Positions 16,582 through 31,598 of a stretch of 33,745 nucleotides of DNA are shown here, in pieces. Under the pieces are notes generated by a model that worked only from the letters and a program-made list of their open reading frames with translations, was not told the DNA's origin and ran no database searches. Numbering within the stretch: the stretch's first letter is position 1; every line of letters begins with the position of its first letter. This stretch comes from a virus. A program made the position numbers and the translations under genes. The stretch is taken from the IMG/VR virus record IMGVR_UViG_3300042863_001878, positions 1 through 33,745 of that record. One strand, 5' to 3'.

Positions 16582-17073
16582 TTAATACCAGTGACCTTCA
16601 TTACGCATTCGTTTTATGAAAGTCAAGTAAGTGCTACACACCCCATAACATCTTAGTTTTACTGTACTGAACATACCTCTATCTTGAATCTCGGGTAAAA
16701 ATATCACACTGTTATTATTAATAGGAACAGTTCCTGGTGTGATTAGTTTACCGTTGCTTGCAGTAGCATATGGTGGAGGTGGAGTAGATGCCCCAAAGAT
16801 AAAATAGTTAGGATACAGATTAATTGATTGTGTTGTAAACCAGTTATATGTAGCTTGATCCTGACAATTAATCCAAAATCTATTACCTTGCAAGTAGGCG
16901 TCACTGACTTCTATCAGATCATTTGCAGTTCCTACATGTAGTTTGTTGTTGACTCTCCACACATCTACCATACAAGAAAACCCATTATTAAACGCCGTTC
17001 CAATTTGATTGGGAGTGTTGGCTTTTTCGTAGTTTTGCCCGTCGTAGATTCCTTGATAAGATATGTATAACAT
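16582..17073 (-). CDS. Glycerophosphodiesterase-like protein, catalytic residues lost
   Basis: 163 residues. The first 80 resemble the start of glycerophosphodiester-phosphodiesterase/PI-PLC-like TIM barrels: ISYQGIYDGQNYEKANTP, GFSCMVDVW, KLHVGTAND and YLQGNRFWINCQDQ. In active relatives these read roughly SHRG, (E)-x-DVW and GHD. Here the first His is Tyr (Y6), the Glu is Met (M35) and the second His is Thr (T49). The protein is also short for a full barrel, so it is probably a non-catalytic binding or structural protein. The start lies just after a TAAATACT motif on the same strand, with no ribosome-binding site. Confidence 0.6.
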   Translation of the reverse strand: MLYISYQGIYDGQNYEKANTPNQIGTAFNNGFSCMVDVWRVNNKLHVGTANDLIEVSDAYLQGNRFWINCQDQATYNWFTTQSINLYPNYFIFGASTPPPPYATASNGKLITPGTVPINNNSVIFLPEIQDRGMFSTVKLRCYGVCSTYLTFIKRMRNEGHWY

Positions 17074-25643: not shown

Positions 25644-25657
25644 ACGATATATAAATA

Positions 25658-26860
25658 ATGAACCAAGAAAACAACAAACTAGACCATTGTTCCTTTTGTG
25701 GTAACCACAAAGACGTAGTTAAAAAACTTATCGTAAGTGAGTCAGTAGCAATTTGCAGTGATTGTATCGACCTTTGTACGCAACTTATAAAAGATGATGT
25801 TATCGTTGAGATAGACAAAAATTCTTTCCCAAATTTAGATCCAATAGAAATCAAAGCATACTTAGACAAATACGTTATCGGTCAAAGTGCCGCTAAAATG
25901 GTACTAAGTGTTGCTATTGCAAATCATTACAAACGAATTGAGAATCCACCTAAGGATTTAGAAATTTCAAAAGGTAATATTCTATTAGTAGGCCCAACTG
26001 GTTCAGGCAAGACTTTACTAGCTAAGACTGTTGCTAAATTCTTAAACGTTCCCTTAGTTGTTGCTGACGCAACCAGTCTTACCGAAGCAGGATATGTAGG
26101 TGATGATGTAGAGTCAATGATTAGTATGTTAGTCAATGCGGCAGGCGGTGATGTAAAACTTGCTGAAAAGGGAATTGTATTTGTTGATGAAATTGATAAG
26201 ATTGCTCGTAAATCTGAAGGTGCCAGTATAACACGTGACGTTAGTGGTGAAGGTGTTCAACAAGCATTGCTTAAACTTGTTGAAGGCACAGTATGTCGCA
26301 TTCCTGCAAGTGGTGGTAGAAAACATCCCGGTGGTGACATGTTAGAAATCAACACAAAAAACATTTTGTTTATTGCAGGCGGTGCATTCGTTGGTTTAAA
26401 AGATATTATCAAGTCTCGCAAAAAAGGTACCACTATTGGCTTTGGTGCAGAAATTAAATCAAGTGACGATCAAGTAAGCTTAGAACAAGTTACTCCAGAT
26501 GATCTTACACGATTTGGTATGATTCCTGAATTCATTGGTCGATTTACTACTACAGTGTCACTAGCAGATTTAGACAAAGAGCAATTATTAAAAGTACTGA
26601 CCGAAATCAAAAATAACTATATCAGTCAATATCAATATCTATTTGAAATCGACAATGTGAAGTTAGACTTTTTAGATGAAGCATTGGAACAACTTGTAGA
26701 TAATTGCTTAAAACTAAAAACAGGTGCACGTGGGTTACACACTGAGATTGAAAAAGCACTGATGCCTCATATGTACAATCTCAAGCAGTATAGTAAAAAT
26801 AACATAAAAGAAATATCTATTTCTAAAAATATGGTATTAGAACCTAAATCACTTCTGTGA
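25658..26860 (+). CDS. clpX: ClpX, AAA+ unfoldase
   Basis: 400 residues, close to bacterial ClpX (about 420). The N-terminal zinc-binding domain is intact (C11, C14, C33, C36). Walker A is GPTGSGKT (about 112-119) and Walker B is VFVDEIDKI. Pore loop GYVG (about 145-148) and RKH loop (about 221-223) are present, as is the arginine/sensor region TGARGLHTEIEKAL. The ClpP-docking IGF loop is kept (I260-G261-F262 in TIGFGAEI), so it should dock on ClpP, host or phage. A clpP lies 4 kb downstream. There is no ribosome-binding site; TATAAATA (25650-25657) directly abuts the ATG. Confidence 0.95.
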   Translation: MNQENNKLDHCSFCGNHKDVVKKLIVSESVAICSDCIDLCTQLIKDDVIVEIDKNSFPNLDPIEIKAYLDKYVIGQSAAKMVLSVAIANHYKRIENPPKDLEISKGNILLVGPTGSGKTLLAKTVAKFLNVPLVVADATSLTEAGYVGDDVESMISMLVNAAGGDVKLAEKGIVFVDEIDKIARKSEGASITRDVSGEGVQQALLKLVEGTVCRIPASGGRKHPGGDMLEINTKNILFIAGGAFVGLKDIIKSRKKGTTIGFGAEIKSSDDQVSLEQVTPDDLTRFGMIPEFIGRFTTTVSLADLDKEQLLKVLTEIKNNYISQYQYLFEIDNVKLDFLDEALEQLVDNCLKLKTGARGLHTEIEKALMPHMYNLKQYSKNNIKEISISKNMVLEPKSLL

Positions 26861-26892
26861 CCTAAAAACTTTTATTATTTTACGCAATCTGA

Positions 26893-26898
26893 TATAAT
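26893..26898 (+). promoter_or_regulatory. hsp20 promoter, TATAAT/TAAATAC
   Basis: TGA-TATAAT (26893-26898) with no clear -35. TAAATAC (26898-26904) overlaps it and is the late-like motif. Either would start the RNA near 26905-26909, just at the first leader hairpin. Confidence 0.5.
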
Positions 26899-26907
26899 AA
26901 ATACATG

Positions 26908-26961
26908 TTCAGATGCCGATGGTCGGGTCTGAAATCAAACGTCATACTTGCTTAATAGGAG
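26908..26961 (+). promoter_or_regulatory. Candidate ROSE-like RNA thermometer in the hsp20 leader
   Basis: First hairpin: TTCAGA (26908-26913) pairs with TCTGAA (26928-26933), with inner CCGA/TCGG and a 3-nt loop. Second: C-TTGCT (26947-26952) faces the ribosome-binding site AGGA-G (26957-26961) across TAAT. TTGCT against AGGA with a bulged G is the ROSE arrangement that opens on heating. Both hairpins sit in a leader of about 60 nt. Confidence 0.5.
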
Positions 26962-26967
26962 AAAAAC

Positions 26968-27411
26968 ATGACAAAAACTTTATCCCTTCGTTCCCTCGAC
27001 ATTCCGTCAATTCACAAATTTGGTATCGGTTTCGATAACATGTTTGATGAGTTAATGCGAATAAATGCGCAACAATCTTTAAACTATCCCCCATACAATA
27101 TCGTTAAACAAACAGAAGACACTTTCTACATTGAAGTTGCTACTGCTGGTTTCCGTGAAGGTGAGGTACACATCAATTTAGACAACCGCCTGTTGAGTAT
27201 TAAAGGTCGCATTTCACGTGATGAAGAAGGCGCGCAAGAGTACTTGCATCGTGGAATTAGCAGCCGAGACTTTGAACGTGAATTCACACTTGCTGAACAT
27301 GTTGAAGTTATCAATGCTAGTCAACAAGACGGCATTTTAACAATCTATTTGGAACGCAAAGTTCCAGAAGAAAAGAAGCCAAAATCTATTGCTATTAATT
27401 ACACTAAATAA
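26968..27411 (+). CDS. Small heat-shock protein Hsp20, IbpA type
   Basis: 147 residues, an ATP-independent holdase of the alpha-crystallin family. IbpA-like features are YPPYNIVKQTEDTFYIEVA, the DNRLLSIKG strand and the EYLHRGISSRDFEREF loop. QDGILTIYLER is the A-x-x-x-G-x-L region. The C-terminal I-x-I anchor is IAI in KSIAINYTK. The N-terminus has KTLSLRSLDIPSIHKFGIGF, as in IbpA relatives. AGGAG lies 6 nt before the start, inside the predicted thermometer hairpin. Likely assists virion protein folding or holds substrates for ClpXP. Confidence 0.93.
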   Translation: MTKTLSLRSLDIPSIHKFGIGFDNMFDELMRINAQQSLNYPPYNIVKQTEDTFYIEVATAGFREGEVHINLDNRLLSIKGRISRDEEGAQEYLHRGISSRDFEREFTLAEHVEVINASQQDGILTIYLERKVPEEKKPKSIAINYTK

Positions 27412-27425
27412 TATAATGTAATAGT

Positions 27426-27456
27426 GTGTGCGGTCACCCCGATCGCACACTTTTTT
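27426..27456 (+). terminator. Rho-independent terminator after hsp20
   Basis: GTGTGCGGTC (27426-27435) pairs with GATCGCACAC (27441-27450) around ACCCC, one G-T wobble, then six T. It separates hsp20 from clpS 12 nt later. Confidence 0.88.
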
Positions 27457-27467
27457 GAAAGAAAAAA

Positions 27468-27773
27468 ATGTCTAAAACAGATACTAAAGTAAAAATCAAA
27501 CCAAACATAGGTCTTCAAGAACCTCCTCTATTTAAAATCATTTATATCAATGATGATGTAACTTCTATGGAATTCGTTGTAGGATCACTAGTTGATTATT
27601 TTAACTATACCTCAGATTCCGCAGTGAACATTACACAGAATATTCATAATGACGGAAGTGCAGTAGTAGCAATTCTGCCTTATGAAATTGCAGAACAAAA
27701 GGGTATTGAAGTTACTTTAGATGCTAGAGCGCAAGGATATCCTTTACAGGTAAAAGTAGAAGCAGAAATTTAA
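27468..27773 (+). CDS. clpS: ClpS N-degron adaptor
   Basis: 101 residues. The core PPLFKIIYINDDVTSMEFVV has the N-degron pocket residues N28, D29, D30 and gate M34. The conserved His (H60 in NIHNDG) is present. ClpS delivers substrates with bulky N-terminal residues to ClpA/ClpC. No ClpA is seen here, so it may work with the host ClpA or an unusual partner. It follows a strong terminator with only a weak A-rich ribosome-binding site, so it may be read through or need its own signal. Four-base convergent overlap with the next gene. Confidence 0.93.
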   Translation: MSKTDTKVKIKPNIGLQEPPLFKIIYINDDVTSMEFVVGSLVDYFNYTSDSAVNITQNIHNDGSAVVAILPYEIAEQKGIEVTLDARAQGYPLQVKVEAEI

Positions 27774-28462
27774 ACTTCTATGTCTATTCTTTTAGCCCAG
27801 TAAGGATTTTTCTTATTGTAAGGGTTAGACAAATAGTTGATACTATCTAGTTTGGTGTCAACTATTTTTCCATATGAGCCATATGCCCAATGAGATATTT
27901 TTGATTCTAAATCAGCAAGTAATATCATTGTTAGCTCTGGTAGTATTTTTGCATCAGCAGGAACTTCCCCAAAGTATAGTTTTTCGTTAGGGACACCGTT
28001 TGTTAACATTAGGATCTTTTTAACATCTAAATGTTTTTGTAGTTTTTCGATAGAACTCTTTAGATAAATTAGATCCTCAAACCTACTTATACTATGTTTT
28101 TCTTCAAAATCATTTTCTACTTCTCCACCATACCAGCCCGGGCACCCTAATATGGCGACACCATCAATTATAACAACATGATGGTGCAATAATGCAACGT
28201 TTCTAATTTTCTTACAGACACGGGAAATCTCTTTAACTCGACTATCATAGTCTTCTATACCTTCGAATTCTAACGAACCCGGGGTATAGAAAACTCCCTG
28301 ATAAAACCTAGTTAAATGACTTAACGTTAATGCAATAGTCCTAATGTCATTACTGATATTTCCAGCAATTACACAATACAAACTTGTTGCTTTATTTTCC
28401 CAATTAAAACTATCATTAGGTGATAGATTCAAGTCACTTATTAAGTCAAACCCAATTTTCAT
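27770..28462 (-). CDS. Metallophosphoesterase-like pseudoenzyme
   Basis: 230 residues with the outline of a calcineurin-type phosphoesterase: FDLISDLNLSP at the start, then VIAGNISND, YTPGSLEFEG, VAILGCPGWYG, ILMLTNGVPNEK, SHWAYGSYGK and a final YLSNPYNKK. In active enzymes these read D-x-H, GD-x-x-D, GNHE, (T)H-x-P and GH-x-H. Here H is N12, D is N35, NH is S63-L64, the next His is Asn and the terminal HxH is lost. Only D10 remains, so it cannot bind two metals as usual. Probably a binding or regulatory protein. It has no ribosome-binding site; CTAAATA lies 4 nt upstream. Confidence 0.7.
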   Translation of the reverse strand: MKIGFDLISDLNLSPNDSFNWENKATSLYCVIAGNISNDIRTIALTLSHLTRFYQGVFYTPGSLEFEGIEDYDSRVKEISRVCKKIRNVALLHHHVVIIDGVAILGCPGWYGGEVENDFEEKHSISRFEDLIYLKSSIEKLQKHLDVKKILMLTNGVPNEKLYFGEVPADAKILPELTMILLADLESKISHWAYGSYGKIVDTKLDSINYLSNPYNKKNPYWAKRIDIEV

Positions 28463-28465
28463 CTA

Positions 28466-28825
28466 TTATTTAGCAACAGTCATTGTAGGTGCTTTTTTCA
28501 CACGCGGCTTAGCAGGTGCTTTTGCAGGTGCTTTTGCAGGTGCTTTTGCAGGTGCTGCCGGTGCCTTCTTTGCTCTGGGTTTTGCTTGACGTTTCGCTTC
28601 GACTGGTTCCGCTACTGGTGCAGTAGCCTCAACTCGGTCATCGGCTGACTTGCCGACTTCAACAGGCGCTTCTACTACTGGTTCAACCTTTGCAGATTCT
28701 ACTACAGGTGGCACATCTACCTTGTAAGGTGCCCCGTTTGTTGCTTCTTTGACTAGCTCTTTATCACGGAAAAAGAAGTACCAAACTCCAACGGCTGCTA
28801 CAGCCAATATAATAACTAATTCCAT
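28466..28825 (-). CDS. Membrane-anchored protein with Ala/Pro/Lys-rich H1-like tail
   Basis: 119 residues. One N-terminal membrane segment (LVIILAVAAVGVWYFFF) is followed by a Val/Glu/Pro linker and a basic tail of APAKAPAKAPAK repeats (RAKKAPAAPAKAPAKAPAK). The tail resembles histone H1-like C-termini and could bind DNA at the membrane. Good AGGAG ribosome-binding site about 6 nt before ATG 28825. A TAAATACT motif lies about 30 nt upstream. Encoded by a tandem 12-bp repeat that may vary in copy number. Confidence 0.65.
   Translation of the reverse strand: MELVIILAVAAVGVWYFFFRDKELVKEATNGAPYKVDVPPVVESAKVEPVVEAPVEVGKSADDRVEATAPVAEPVEAKRQAKPRAKKAPAAPAKAPAKAPAKAPAKPRVKKAPTMTVAK
28512..28559 (+). 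repeat. Tandem 12-bp repeat, three full copies
   Basis: gcaggtgctttt repeats at 28512, 28524 and 28536, with a partial fourth copy from 28548. It encodes the APAK repeat on the minus strand. Confidence 0.9.
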
Positions 28826-28890
28826 TGTATTCTCCTAAAAAGTAATTAACATAGTATTTAACGGTACACGTAGAATACTAAAATTTTATA

Positions 28891-28898
28891 CTAAATAC
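28891..28898 (+). promoter_or_regulatory. T4-late-like motif before sprT
   Basis: CTAAATAC, 3 nt before the start at 28902, which has no ribosome-binding site. Confidence 0.4.
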
Positions 28899-28901
28899 AA
28901 T

Positions 28902-29399
28902 ATGCCGAAATCTAATACACTTCTAGATTTGATGTCCGAGGATCTTCCCAATAGAACATTCCAAAAGAAATTGCGCTATAGGACAAGTGAGAGAGAAGTT
29001 TTGGCATTGTTTAAAGTCATAAACAAAGAAATTTTCAATAACAAGTTACCTATTCCCAAGATAGAAGTCATGCCAAATTGTAGGACGTATTGGGGATTGT
29101 GTTCGGCAAATGCGTTGGTATTGCATTCTGACAAGACAAAATCAAACTGTACGATAAGACTAATGGATAAATGGTTTTGCAAACAATGGCTTATCACTAC
29201 ACTAGCACATGAAATGTGTCATCAATATCAATGGGATGTGATCGGGTATCAACGTTTAAAAGAAGGCCGTGATCCTCTTATGAGTCACGGTCCCACTTTT
29301 TTCATATTCCGTGATAAGTTAGCCAAACGCGGCATATCTCTAAAAAGATCACATGGGATGCGCAGGTGGTTTCGTCATCAAAACTTATTTAAGTGTTAA
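28902..29399 (+). CDS. SprT-like zinc metalloprotease
   Basis: 165 residues of the SprT/Spartan-like family. The zinc motif is TTLAHEMCHQYQWD (HExxH) and a later SHGPTFF supplies the third His. The N-terminal LFKVINKEIFNNKLP is the family's usual lead-in helix. Spartan proteins cut DNA-protein crosslinks, but the role of phage SprT-like proteins is not established. Basic C-terminus (SLKRSHGMRRWFRHQ) fits DNA binding. No ribosome-binding site; it lies next to a late-like motif. Confidence 0.85.
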   Translation: MPKSNTLLDLMSEDLPNRTFQKKLRYRTSEREVLALFKVINKEIFNNKLPIPKIEVMPNCRTYWGLCSANALVLHSDKTKSNCTIRLMDKWFCKQWLITTLAHEMCHQYQWDVIGYQRLKEGRDPLMSHGPTFFIFRDKLAKRGISLKRSHGMRRWFRHQNLFKC

Positions 29400-29403
29400 C
29401 AAG

Positions 29404-29413
29404 CATAAATACT
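29404..29413 (+). promoter_or_regulatory. T4-late-like motif before the 29418 gene
   Basis: CATAAATACT, 4 nt before ATG 29418; no ribosome-binding site. Predicted start point coincides with the ATG. Confidence 0.5.
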
Positions 29414-29417
29414 CATT

Positions 29418-30956
29418 ATGCGTGAATACATCAATCTAATCCAACAACTATCCGAAGGTACGGGCATTGTCGGTCTAAGTGCCGGCGAAATCATAAAATA
29501 TGATGCTCGTTTTAAAAAATTTATAGAATACATAGAAGGTAAAAAACCCTTTACCACAGTAGACGGGGACAAAGTTATCGTTGATCCTAGAGAGGCAAGA
29601 CGCTTCTTAAATTTAAGAGCACAAGATATGTTCAAGGGTAGCTTAAAAGCAAGACTATCTGACGGAGACGAGATAGCCTTGAGTAGTCTAGCCAAAACAA
29701 AAGATTTTGGTGGCGCTGCACCTGAAGCCGGACAAGATCCTAGTTCCGCAGGCAAAGAAGCACTATTAGTAAAACCAGGTCAAATTGGAATTGTAGATCA
29801 AAATTATCCAGCAGAAGATTTTTATGACGTTATTGCAAGTAACCCAACATTATCCGGTACTGACTATGGACAAGTAATTCAGCAATTGGCTCAATATATC
29901 GTTTCAGGTGAATACGTTATGTTGCCTCAGGAATACAAGGGAGCGGCAAAAGAAAAAGTACGTAAAGCAATTGTTGATTATGCCGGCGAATATCTAGGTG
30001 TATTGGCGTTACTGTACAATCGTAGTCGCTTCCCACGTAAAGCACAATTTCAAGAATGGTTGGGCGGAGATATCAATCAAATTTCATTAAATTTTCCTAG
30101 CAAAGCAAACAATAATCTTGCTGATAGTTTTGCTACACTTACTAATAGTACTACAAATCACACATTGAATATTTCTAGTAAAGGAACCGGGGGCGGCGCA
30201 GCTCCTGCTATCTCGGGTCTTGTAATCCCTGAACATGTTAAATCAGATCCTAACTATGCAACTGTTGTTGAAATGATTGACATTTGCAAAAATGATTCTG
30301 TGTTAATGTCCATTTTTAATCTGATGGATTTAATTTACAGCGTAAATCCAAAAGCAATCGATGAGAGATATCATCCGTTCTTGCCGTTCTCGCAAAAAGA
30401 ACCTAAATTACCTGCACTATGTAAGCAGAGTAATGATTCTAGAAAATCAGCAAATCCTATAGGCATACCTAAAAAATATAAGTCATTGTGGTCTAATGTT
30501 ACTGGTGGTGGAACTGAAGGCGGTAAAGTATTATATGGTATTAGAAAACAAGTTGATGAAGCAATCAATAAGAAAGATGCTATTCCTGAATTCAAAGACG
30601 CTATCTTGCAGATTTTGGAAATGAACTTCATCCAACAATATTGTGACTACAAGGCCGGCGAACTAACATTTGCAACTCAATGGCCCGCAAAACTAGACGG
30701 CAAAATTAGCTTGGAGAACAAAGCAAGTACTACTGACCCGTTATCAAATGGATTCAGTTTTAAATTGGGCCGTACTGATAATAGTGTAAGCTCAGAACCC
30801 GGTGATGAAACTGTAGCTGATCCGGATACTGGTTTGGATACCGATGATGATTTCATGTCCAAAGCAGATAGCCTAGCAGGTGGTAGTGCTCCCAAAAAAG
30901 CAAAATCAAAAACCTCAGCACCCGAAGTGGGCAACGTTGGGCGCAAAAAACGTTGA
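29418..30956 (+). CDS. Putative head-packaged structural protein
   Basis: 512 residues, not recognised. The N-terminus MREYINLIQQLSE-G closely resembles the T4 capsid-targeting propeptide (MKTYQEFIAE) and has a gp21-type L-x-E cleavage site after residue 13. The body is Ala, Gly and Asn rich with a Gly-rich stretch (SSKGTGGGAAPAISG). It ends in an acidic then basic tail (KKAKSKTSAPEVGNVGRKKR). Preceded by a late-like motif without ribosome-binding site, consistent with a virion gene. The stop overlaps the clpP promoter -35 box. An internal head protein injected with DNA is the favoured guess. Confidence 0.5.
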   Translation: MREYINLIQQLSEGTGIVGLSAGEIIKYDARFKKFIEYIEGKKPFTTVDGDKVIVDPREARRFLNLRAQDMFKGSLKARLSDGDEIALSSLAKTKDFGGAAPEAGQDPSSAGKEALLVKPGQIGIVDQNYPAEDFYDVIASNPTLSGTDYGQVIQQLAQYIVSGEYVMLPQEYKGAAKEKVRKAIVDYAGEYLGVLALLYNRSRFPRKAQFQEWLGGDINQISLNFPSKANNNLADSFATLTNSTTNHTLNISSKGTGGGAAPAISGLVIPEHVKSDPNYATVVEMIDICKNDSVLMSIFNLMDLIYSVNPKAIDERYHPFLPFSQKEPKLPALCKQSNDSRKSANPIGIPKKYKSLWSNVTGGGTEGGKVLYGIRKQVDEAINKKDAIPEFKDAILQILEMNFIQQYCDYKAGELTFATQWPAKLDGKISLENKASTTDPLSNGFSFKLGRTDNSVSSEPGDETVADPDTGLDTDDDFMSKADSLAGGSAPKKAKSKTSAPEVGNVGRKKR

Positions 30957-30980
30957 CATTTCATAAACTTCCTGTATAAT
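30953..30980 (+). promoter_or_regulatory. Promoter for clpP
   Basis: TTGACA at 30953-30958 (contains the preceding TGA stop), a 16-bp spacer, then TATAAT at 30975-30980. The clpP start has AAGGAAG about 6 nt upstream. Confidence 0.8.
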
Positions 30981-31007
30981 AGTAATTATTTTATACAAAG
31001 GAAGTTT

Positions 31008-31598
31008 ATGAGTCTAGTCCCTATCGTTTTGGAACAAACAGCCCGCGGTGAGCGTAGTTACGATATTTACAGTCGATTGTTACGTGACCGTGTTATCTTG
31101 CTTGAGGGCGAAGTACACGACCAAATGGCAAACTTAATTGTTGCCCAATTATTATTCCTAGAGAGTGAAGATAGCGGAAAAGATATCAGCATGTATATCA
31201 ATAGTCCCGGTGGTAGTGTCACTGCTGGTATGGCAATCTATGACACTATGCAGTTTATCAAGCCTGATATTCAAACTATTGTTATGGGACAAGCATGTAG
31301 TATGGGTAGCCTGTTAGCACAAGCAGGAGCTAAGGGTAAACGAATGATGTTGCCAAACGCACGACACATGATTCACCAGCCAAGTGGTGGTGCTCGTGGT
31401 ATGCAAAGTGACATTGAAATTTCATACAAAGAAATCACATATCTTAAAAAGCGGTTGACCGAAATCTATGTCAAACACAATAGTGCCGGCAAGACATACG
31501 AAGAATTCGAACGTGACATGGACCGAGACAAATTCATGAGTGCTGAGGAAGCACTTGAGTACGGCTTGATTGATAAAATCATCGAAACACGCGGTTGA
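31008..31598 (+). CDS. clpP: ClpP serine peptidase
   Basis: 196 residues, same length as bacterial ClpP. The catalytic triad is intact: Ser98 ([11 protein letters not shown]), His123 (MIHQPSGG) and Asp174 ([16 protein letters not shown]). [20 protein letters not shown] is the conserved oxyanion and axial region. ClpP forms two heptameric rings and degrades substrates unfolded by ClpX. The N-terminus ([20 protein letters not shown]) is the usual one. Its own strong promoter separates its expression from clpX, so it may be made earlier. It could pair with the phage ClpX or mix with host ClpP. Confidence 0.95.

Follow-up and report, generated by a model that had tools for sequence, protein, structure and literature searches.

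A ROSE-like leader with a likely thermosensing role ahead of the small heat shock gene of T4-like aquatic phages

The two-hairpin ROSE elements of Pseudomonas are proven RNA thermometers (PMC3669281). In the short ROSE of Pseudomonas ibpA, the gene of a small heat shock protein (sHsp) is preceded by a leader of ~60 nt with two hairpins. Hairpin I has a GAUGCC...GGGUC core, and a U(U/C)GCU motif pairs imperfectly with the Shine-Dalgarno (SD) sequence, leaving a G unpaired. In P. putida the gene is locked in the off state when the equivalent G (G39) is deleted and U38C introduced, and the AUG of the Pseudomonas elements is predicted to be unpaired and is cleaved at all temperatures (PMC3669281). 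The ROSE elements of E. coli ibpA and Bradyrhizobium hspA share with the phage leader reported here the U(U/C)GCU anti-SD, the SD hairpin and the heat-shock gene downstream, but their leaders are longer and form three to four hairpins (PMC3669281). ROSE-G is a further ROSE relative with an unpaired G, which differs in its CUGCU motif, its two opposed bulged Gs and the ABC transporter genes downstream (PMC12857270).

The RNA thermometers known from phages are so far few, isolated and of other types (PMC11182007), namely those of lambda cIII, of SPbeta blyA (FourU) and of a gut-phage sigma-70 leader (PMC4166951, PMC10586365, PMC11182007). These are likewise temperature-responsive phage mRNA leaders, but they belong to other structural classes, stand as single cases and do not precede chaperone genes. 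Chaperone genes themselves are on record in phages: hsp20 is a cyanophage core gene for which capsid scaffolding has been proposed (PMC3037559), pmoC-phages carry hsp20 (PMC7674155) and moraphages encode DnaK/DnaJ (PMC12619734). The roles proposed in these papers for the same genes as studied here are scaffolding, host survival or counter-defence. Our search of the open-access literature, with most subscription papers and preprints on bioRxiv outside its scope, gave no phage with a ROSE element, and the open-access papers on viral sHsps, pmoC-phages and DnaK-bearing jumbo phages mention no thermometer. ROSE elements in phages, cyanophages included, have apparently gone unnoticed so far.

The window analysed here is a 33.7-kb fragment (33,745 nt) of IMG/VR virus record IMGVR_UViG_3300042863_001878. 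At 26968–27411 on the plus strand it encodes a 147-aa small heat shock protein (Pfam HSP20, E = 2.4e-17), as the earlier note had called it. Its right half contains clpX (25658–26860), hsp20, clpS (27468–27773), a gene for a SprT-like metalloprotease and clpP (31008–31598) within 6 kb (25658–31598), forming a phage proteostasis cluster, and a terminator-like hairpin, GTGTGCGGTCACCCCGATCGCACAC, followed by a T-run, lies between hsp20 and clpS (27427–27457).

The hsp20 leader is 60 nt long and is built, like the short ROSE thermometers of Pseudomonas, from two hairpins; all of its features lie on the plus strand. Upstream of it is the promoter-like TATAATAAATAC (26893–26904), which contains ATAAATA at 26897–26903. 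This motif ends 4 nt 5′ of hairpin I, so hairpin I would sit at or near the mRNA 5′ end. Hairpin I (26908–26933) consists of UUCAGAU-(G)-CCGA, a UGG loop and UCGG-GUCUGAA, with G26915 bulged. A 7-nt linker then leads to GUCAU (26941–26945), a proposed start-codon clamp complementary to AUGAC (26968–26972), which comprises the start codon and two further bases. The anti-SD CUUGCU (26947–26952) carries the ROSE U(U/C)GCU motif with G26950 unpaired; it is separated by UAAU from its partner, the SD AGGAG (26957–26961), and a short A-rich spacer connects the latter to AUGAC. The TTCAGA/TCTGAA hairpin and the C-TTGCT facing AGGA-G that the earlier note had picked out ahead of the hsp20 ATG at 26968 are therefore both present. 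The position in the 5′ leader of a heat-shock gene, mostly a small one, which is among the criteria of the ROSE class, also holds here, on the Pfam assignment and on the gene specificity described below.

A permissive scan of 401 bases against 4,227 Rfam families returned ROSE_3 (RF02523) as the sole plausible family. The match spans 26907–26973 with 25.4 bits (E = 0.0032 against all 4,227 families; E = 6.3e-5 in a single-family search of the record), and it runs end to end over model positions 1–69 of 69 in the two-hairpin layout. The score does not reach the curated gathering score of 43 bits, so a default Rfam scan of the window leader lists no families; the search with the Rfam ROSE model that had been proposed as a check thus gives a full-length match that stays under the cut-off. 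Among 13 phage and cell loci scanned permissively, only the leader of phage Melnitz-3 scored at E < 0.1 (ROSE_3, 34.1 bits), and Rfam alone would therefore miss nearly all such leaders. Besides this low score, the phage leader differs from the Pseudomonas elements in being viral and in having the ATAAATA motif where they have a bacterial sigma-32 promoter. The FourU thermometer class was ruled out, since the SD is opposed by CUUGCU and not by four U.

To compare leaders among related phages, as the earlier note had suggested, we used protein similarity, without regard to the leader, to pick 80 hsp20 relatives from IMG/VR, and searched them with a covariance model, R1, built from 16 leaders of the window's clade (its E-values are rough). 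R1 finds the hsp20 leader in 79 of the 80 relatives, with 32–91 bits. In the R1 alignment 98.7% of cells pair, which drops to 38–53% after sliding the partners by 1–3 columns, and 142 cells show both-sided changes vs 35 in shuffles; the shuffle control ignores the relatedness of the sequences, which the slide control allows for. Covariation was observed directly in hairpin I, where 98.2% of cells are paired and 9 of the 10 pairs have changed on both sides. The anti-SD/SD helix (helix 2; 99.7% of cells paired) is near-invariant: both sides have changed twice at the outer C-G pair and once at the inner C-G pair, and cyanophages show a U-G to C-G exchange. Absence of covariation in the UUGCU/AGGA pairs had been named beforehand as a refuting outcome, but these pairs vary too little for the test to discriminate: ribosome binding holds the SD side constant, and the invariance of this helix for that reason neither supports nor refutes the pairing. 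R1 is a narrow model, as it gave no match at the E. coli ibpA locus or in two betaproteobacterial MAGs, although their hsp20 leader shows the motif by eye.

The unpaired position in the anti-SD is widely retained. CUUGCU/AGGAG is identical in 50/50 distinct clade leaders that could be parsed, CUCGCU occurs in each of 45 distinct leaders of the cyanophage type, and those dnaK leaders that were parsed retain a YGCU form; in 9/80 phage dnaK leaders, CUCACU or CUUACU places an unpaired A at the bulge position. One single deletion would turn CUUGCU into a perfect anti-SD. Since the bulge is kept all the same, selection seems to hold the helix imperfect, as a thermometer would need, although this is read from sequences only.

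The complementarity of GUCAU to AUGAC, start codon included, had been overlooked in the earlier note. At least 5 bp can form between the linker and the AUG region in 42/50 distinct clade leaders, mostly as GUCAU/AUGAC, and the longest linker–AUG helix averages 5.06 in the clade vs 3.47 with shuffled linkers. In a clade subgroup with ACT as second codon the partner is shifted, giving UAGU/ACUA. Cyanophage and dnaK leaders showed no excess of linker–AUG pairing over shuffled linkers. The Pseudomonas-type criterion of an unpaired start codon is thus not fulfilled in the window's clade, where a GUCAU/AUGAC helix is predicted without probing data, and this putative clamp is the main structural difference from Pseudomonas ROSE.

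We then asked how far the element extends. The layout is visible by eye in the Kyanoviridae phages C48C1 and Melnitz-3, the Pelagibacter phages HTVC008M and HTVC115P, the Sinorhizobium phage Phosso and the cyanophages P-TIM40, S-PM2, S-SSM4 and S-SSM5. When ten isolated phages were searched genome-wide with R1, seven (Melnitz-3, Phosso, P-TIM40, S-PM2, S-SSM4, S-SSM5 and HTVC115P) had a single match at E < 0.5, each at hsp20, and C48C1 had three equally weak matches, one of them at hsp20. The Vibrio phage IBT_VpB-34 has hsp20 without the element, so the link between the two is not universal in phages. UYGCU and an SD precede hsp20 in 77/77 usable cyanophage-type loci collected by protein from IMG/VR. 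Across 30 whole IMG/VR contigs (~4 Mb), R1 matches at E ≤ 0.1 comprised the 30 hsp20 leaders, a second hsp20 copy, dnaK and two weak others, one at a small ORF of unknown function and one a tail-fibre match in two contigs. The latter (G023, G028) precedes a tail-fibre-like ORF and was rejected as ROSE for its poor hairpin. Four of the largest contigs encode a T4-type gp23 capsid protein and are accordingly phages. The second hsp20 copy, on a 524-kb contig (G002; L168:1996–2061), has its own thermometer-type leader (76 bits) and its own clpS downstream.

The element is not confined to hsp20. UYGCU and an SD were found in 71/80 phage dnaK relatives. At the dnaK ATG, R1 gave ~42 matches with E ≤ 0.05, and in many of these loci an hsp20 that comes next bears a second element. 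ROSE-type leaders precede full-length phage dnaK (~600–640 aa) at L065:965–1033, L071:970–1036, L073:973–1037, L074:973–1037, L043:1032–1094, L169:1337–1400 and, in L413–L492, at ~1440–1509; in L043, hsp20 follows dnaK directly and lacks an element of its own. Among phage groEL relatives, the groES leader of 38 loci gives an R1 match at E ≤ 0.05, often joined by one on the hsp20 that follows, and 26/75 usable phage groEL loci have no element; the signature stands ahead of about half of phage groES genes. ROSE-type groES-groEL leaders are at L066:824–883 (= L493:1052–1111) and in L494, L495 and L541–L552, and L066 and its relatives have an 11-codon ORF between the element and groES. One phage groEL clade (e.g. 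L513–L530) was rejected as ROSE and has ordinary −35/−10-like leaders, which makes it a useful negative control.

Gene-blind searches led back largely to the same genes. Among the matches listed for DNA pattern A, 121 sites included 80 at hsp20 and three at dnaK, and most of the rest had no SD. Among those listed for pattern B, 107 of 120 sites were at hsp20 and five at small helical ORFs, and several further sites were hsp20 cut by contig ends. Pattern-scan sites without an SD were discarded as chance. In related loci, 74 of 925 ORFs have the signature (67 hsp20, 6 dnaK and 1 clpS). The ROSE-like device is thus general in T4-like aquatic phages, also on dnaK and groES, and its reach was understated in the earlier note.

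The promoter motif differs between phage and cellular genes. ATAAATA lies just 5′ of hairpin I in 43/52 distinct clade leaders (~1 expected) and in 54/60 dnaK leaders (0.7 expected), and CTTGAA occurs in none of these 52 and 60 leaders. In chromosomal Pelagibacter hsp20 the element is likewise present, preceded by the promoter motif CTTGAA: 12/12 distinct leaders from isolate, single-cell and MAG contigs have CTTGAA and 1/12 has ATAAATA. In the HIMB114 and CC_bin40 genomes the hsp20 leader is the only R1 match. The cellular gene thus combines a sigma-32-like motif with the thermometer-type leader, and the phage gene a phage-type motif with the same leader. ATAAATA resembles the core of a T4 late promoter. 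In four jumbo contigs we did not find it directly ahead of gp23, which encodes the major capsid protein, so that a late promoter remains a matter of resemblance. In the window, TATAAATA (25650–25657) directly abuts the start codon of clpX (25658) and AATAAATA lies 12 nt ahead of a minus-strand ORF (16582–17073); TATAAATA/AATAAATA is a probable promoter motif of this phage.

Together, the family assignment, the architecture, the gene context and the wide comparative evidence support a ROSE-like element that is real, and make thermosensing likely, if unmeasured. We hold it highly probable that the window leader is a ROSE-type RNA thermometer of the phage sHsp gene, its temperature response being inferred. 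We then propose a mechanistic model, based on homology to the probed Pseudomonas elements. At normal temperature, CUUGCU would pair imperfectly with AGGAG around the unpaired G and block ribosome loading, and in the window's clade GUCAU would also pair with the start-codon region. Upon warming, at a set point that can only be inferred, the weak 3′ hairpin would melt without the firm hairpin I unfolding, and translation of Hsp20 would follow. Transcripts could thus accumulate, with the chaperone made only in heat-stressed infected cells, which is the inferred benefit. The phage appears to control its gene with the translational switch that bacterial sHsp genes have, either retained or taken over from bacteria, the direction of descent being likewise an inference; a phage promoter would replace the heat-shock sigma-32 promoter, and related phages would have the same switch on dnaK and groES. 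On a wider reading, T4-like aquatic phages, including cyanophages, would run their own heat-shock regulon of hsp20, dnaK and groES from phage-type promoters with ROSE-gated translation and without sigma-32, so that heat stress of the infected cell would be the condition for making chaperones, a proposal that we favour with some reservation.

One possible alternative is that the leader is an autoregulatory site, at which Hsp20 represses its own translation until unfolded clients titrate it, so that heat would act indirectly. E. coli IbpA represses itself via its own 5′ UTR, for which R93 is required (PMC10474464). An Arg aligned with R93 is present in every phage Hsp20 compared, that of the window included (R100, invariant in 17 phage proteins), and E. 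coli IbpB has Gln. Alpha- and gamma-proteobacterial sHsps that have thermometers generally share this Arg, too, so autoregulation and thermosensing may coexist, and Hsp20 could add a second layer to the temperature switch. Autoregulation also does not account for the element on dnaK and groES, as we know of no evidence that DnaK or GroES binds such leaders. As a replacement for thermosensing it appears unlikely, yet it is to be taken seriously.

The leader could also be a constitutive brake or a 5′-end stabiliser, serving for example in mRNA protection or as a RegA-type repressor site, set to hold chaperone output down and without a biologically meaningful temperature range. Hairpin I adjoins the presumed mRNA start, regA lies just upstream of hsp20 in S-PM2, and the predicted accessibility of the window's SD is nearly flat with temperature: in nearest-neighbour folding its unpaired probability is 0.40 at 25 °C and 0.43 at 42 °C, compared with a rise from 0.16 to 0.35 for E. 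coli ibpA in the same test. As regards the thermometer itself, SD accessibility is below that of control genes in the clade and cyanophage hsp20 leaders, as groups, and above it in dnaK leaders, the latter speaking against it. Also against it, the start-codon helix is predicted to be still closed at 42 °C, so the leader might block too tightly. Standard folding thus does not predict a temperature response of the leader. Nearest-neighbour models lack the non-canonical pairs of ROSE elements, and we therefore treat these results as uninformative and do not use them as support. A brake or stabiliser would leave unexplained both the exact U(U/C)GCU with its unpaired G and the restriction to heat-shock genes, and we regard it as improbable.

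That the leader is a passive relic, which arrived with a bacterial hsp20 and has no specific role in the phage, could be argued from the chromosomal Pelagibacter hsp20 with the same element behind its CTTGAA motif. Yet hairpin I has been rewritten many times with its pairing retained, the dnaK leaders keep the bulge even where G has become A, the signature survives in groups as distant as cyanophages and freshwater jumbo phages, and the thermometer-type leader is the same although the promoter motif differs. On this sequence evidence the covariation speaks strongly against a relic, which we consider very improbable. Chance complementarity of the SD with an upstream stretch, a caveat of the earlier note in keeping with the unremarkable folding energy of the window leader (z-score −1.31; 26/200 shuffles equally stable), is refuted by the 79/80 relatives, the shuffle and slide controls and the gene specificity, and its probability is negligible.

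A ROSE-type thermometer would bear on the cyanophage core gene hsp20, whose role is unsettled beyond the scaffolding proposal (PMC3037559). If its translation is temperature-gated, a role in stress proteostasis becomes likelier for hsp20 than one as a constitutive assembly factor, and cultured phages, S-PM2 among them, allow such gating to be tested. Temperature would then directly set viral gene expression in very abundant aquatic viruses, with a bearing on infection under warming, and the leaders would be a large new set of natural thermometers, including ROSE elements on dnaK and groES. Short ROSE elements are already known in Pseudomonas; the distribution of the element among viruses is unexpectedly wide.

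Several minor observations concern the motif itself and leaders outside the chaperone genes. Within hairpin I (26914–26927), an unpaired G followed by a C-G pair (UGCC...GGG) echoes UGCU/AGG of the SD hairpin; an echo of this type is also present in the hairpins I of Pelagibacter and cyanophages, and hairpin I may be a second copy of the internal motif of the SD hairpin. R1 matches before clpS (L041, L070, L051 and L034) were rejected as ROSE, as the matched stretch has a different hairpin and no UUGCU. The clpS leader has a conserved hairpin, GCGGGTA...GTGCCCGC, of unknown function (L041:3525–3576, L070:3475–3525, L051:3475–3525). Leaders with UYGCU and an SD also precede small helical, phasin-like ORFs of ~65–97 aa (L170:1973–2037, L191:4158, L246:10494), and pattern-B loci with the same ORF context are L352, L363, L375, L389 and L394. 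Two of these small ORFs were tested and had no confident Pfam match; they are a possible non-chaperone client of a ROSE-like leader.
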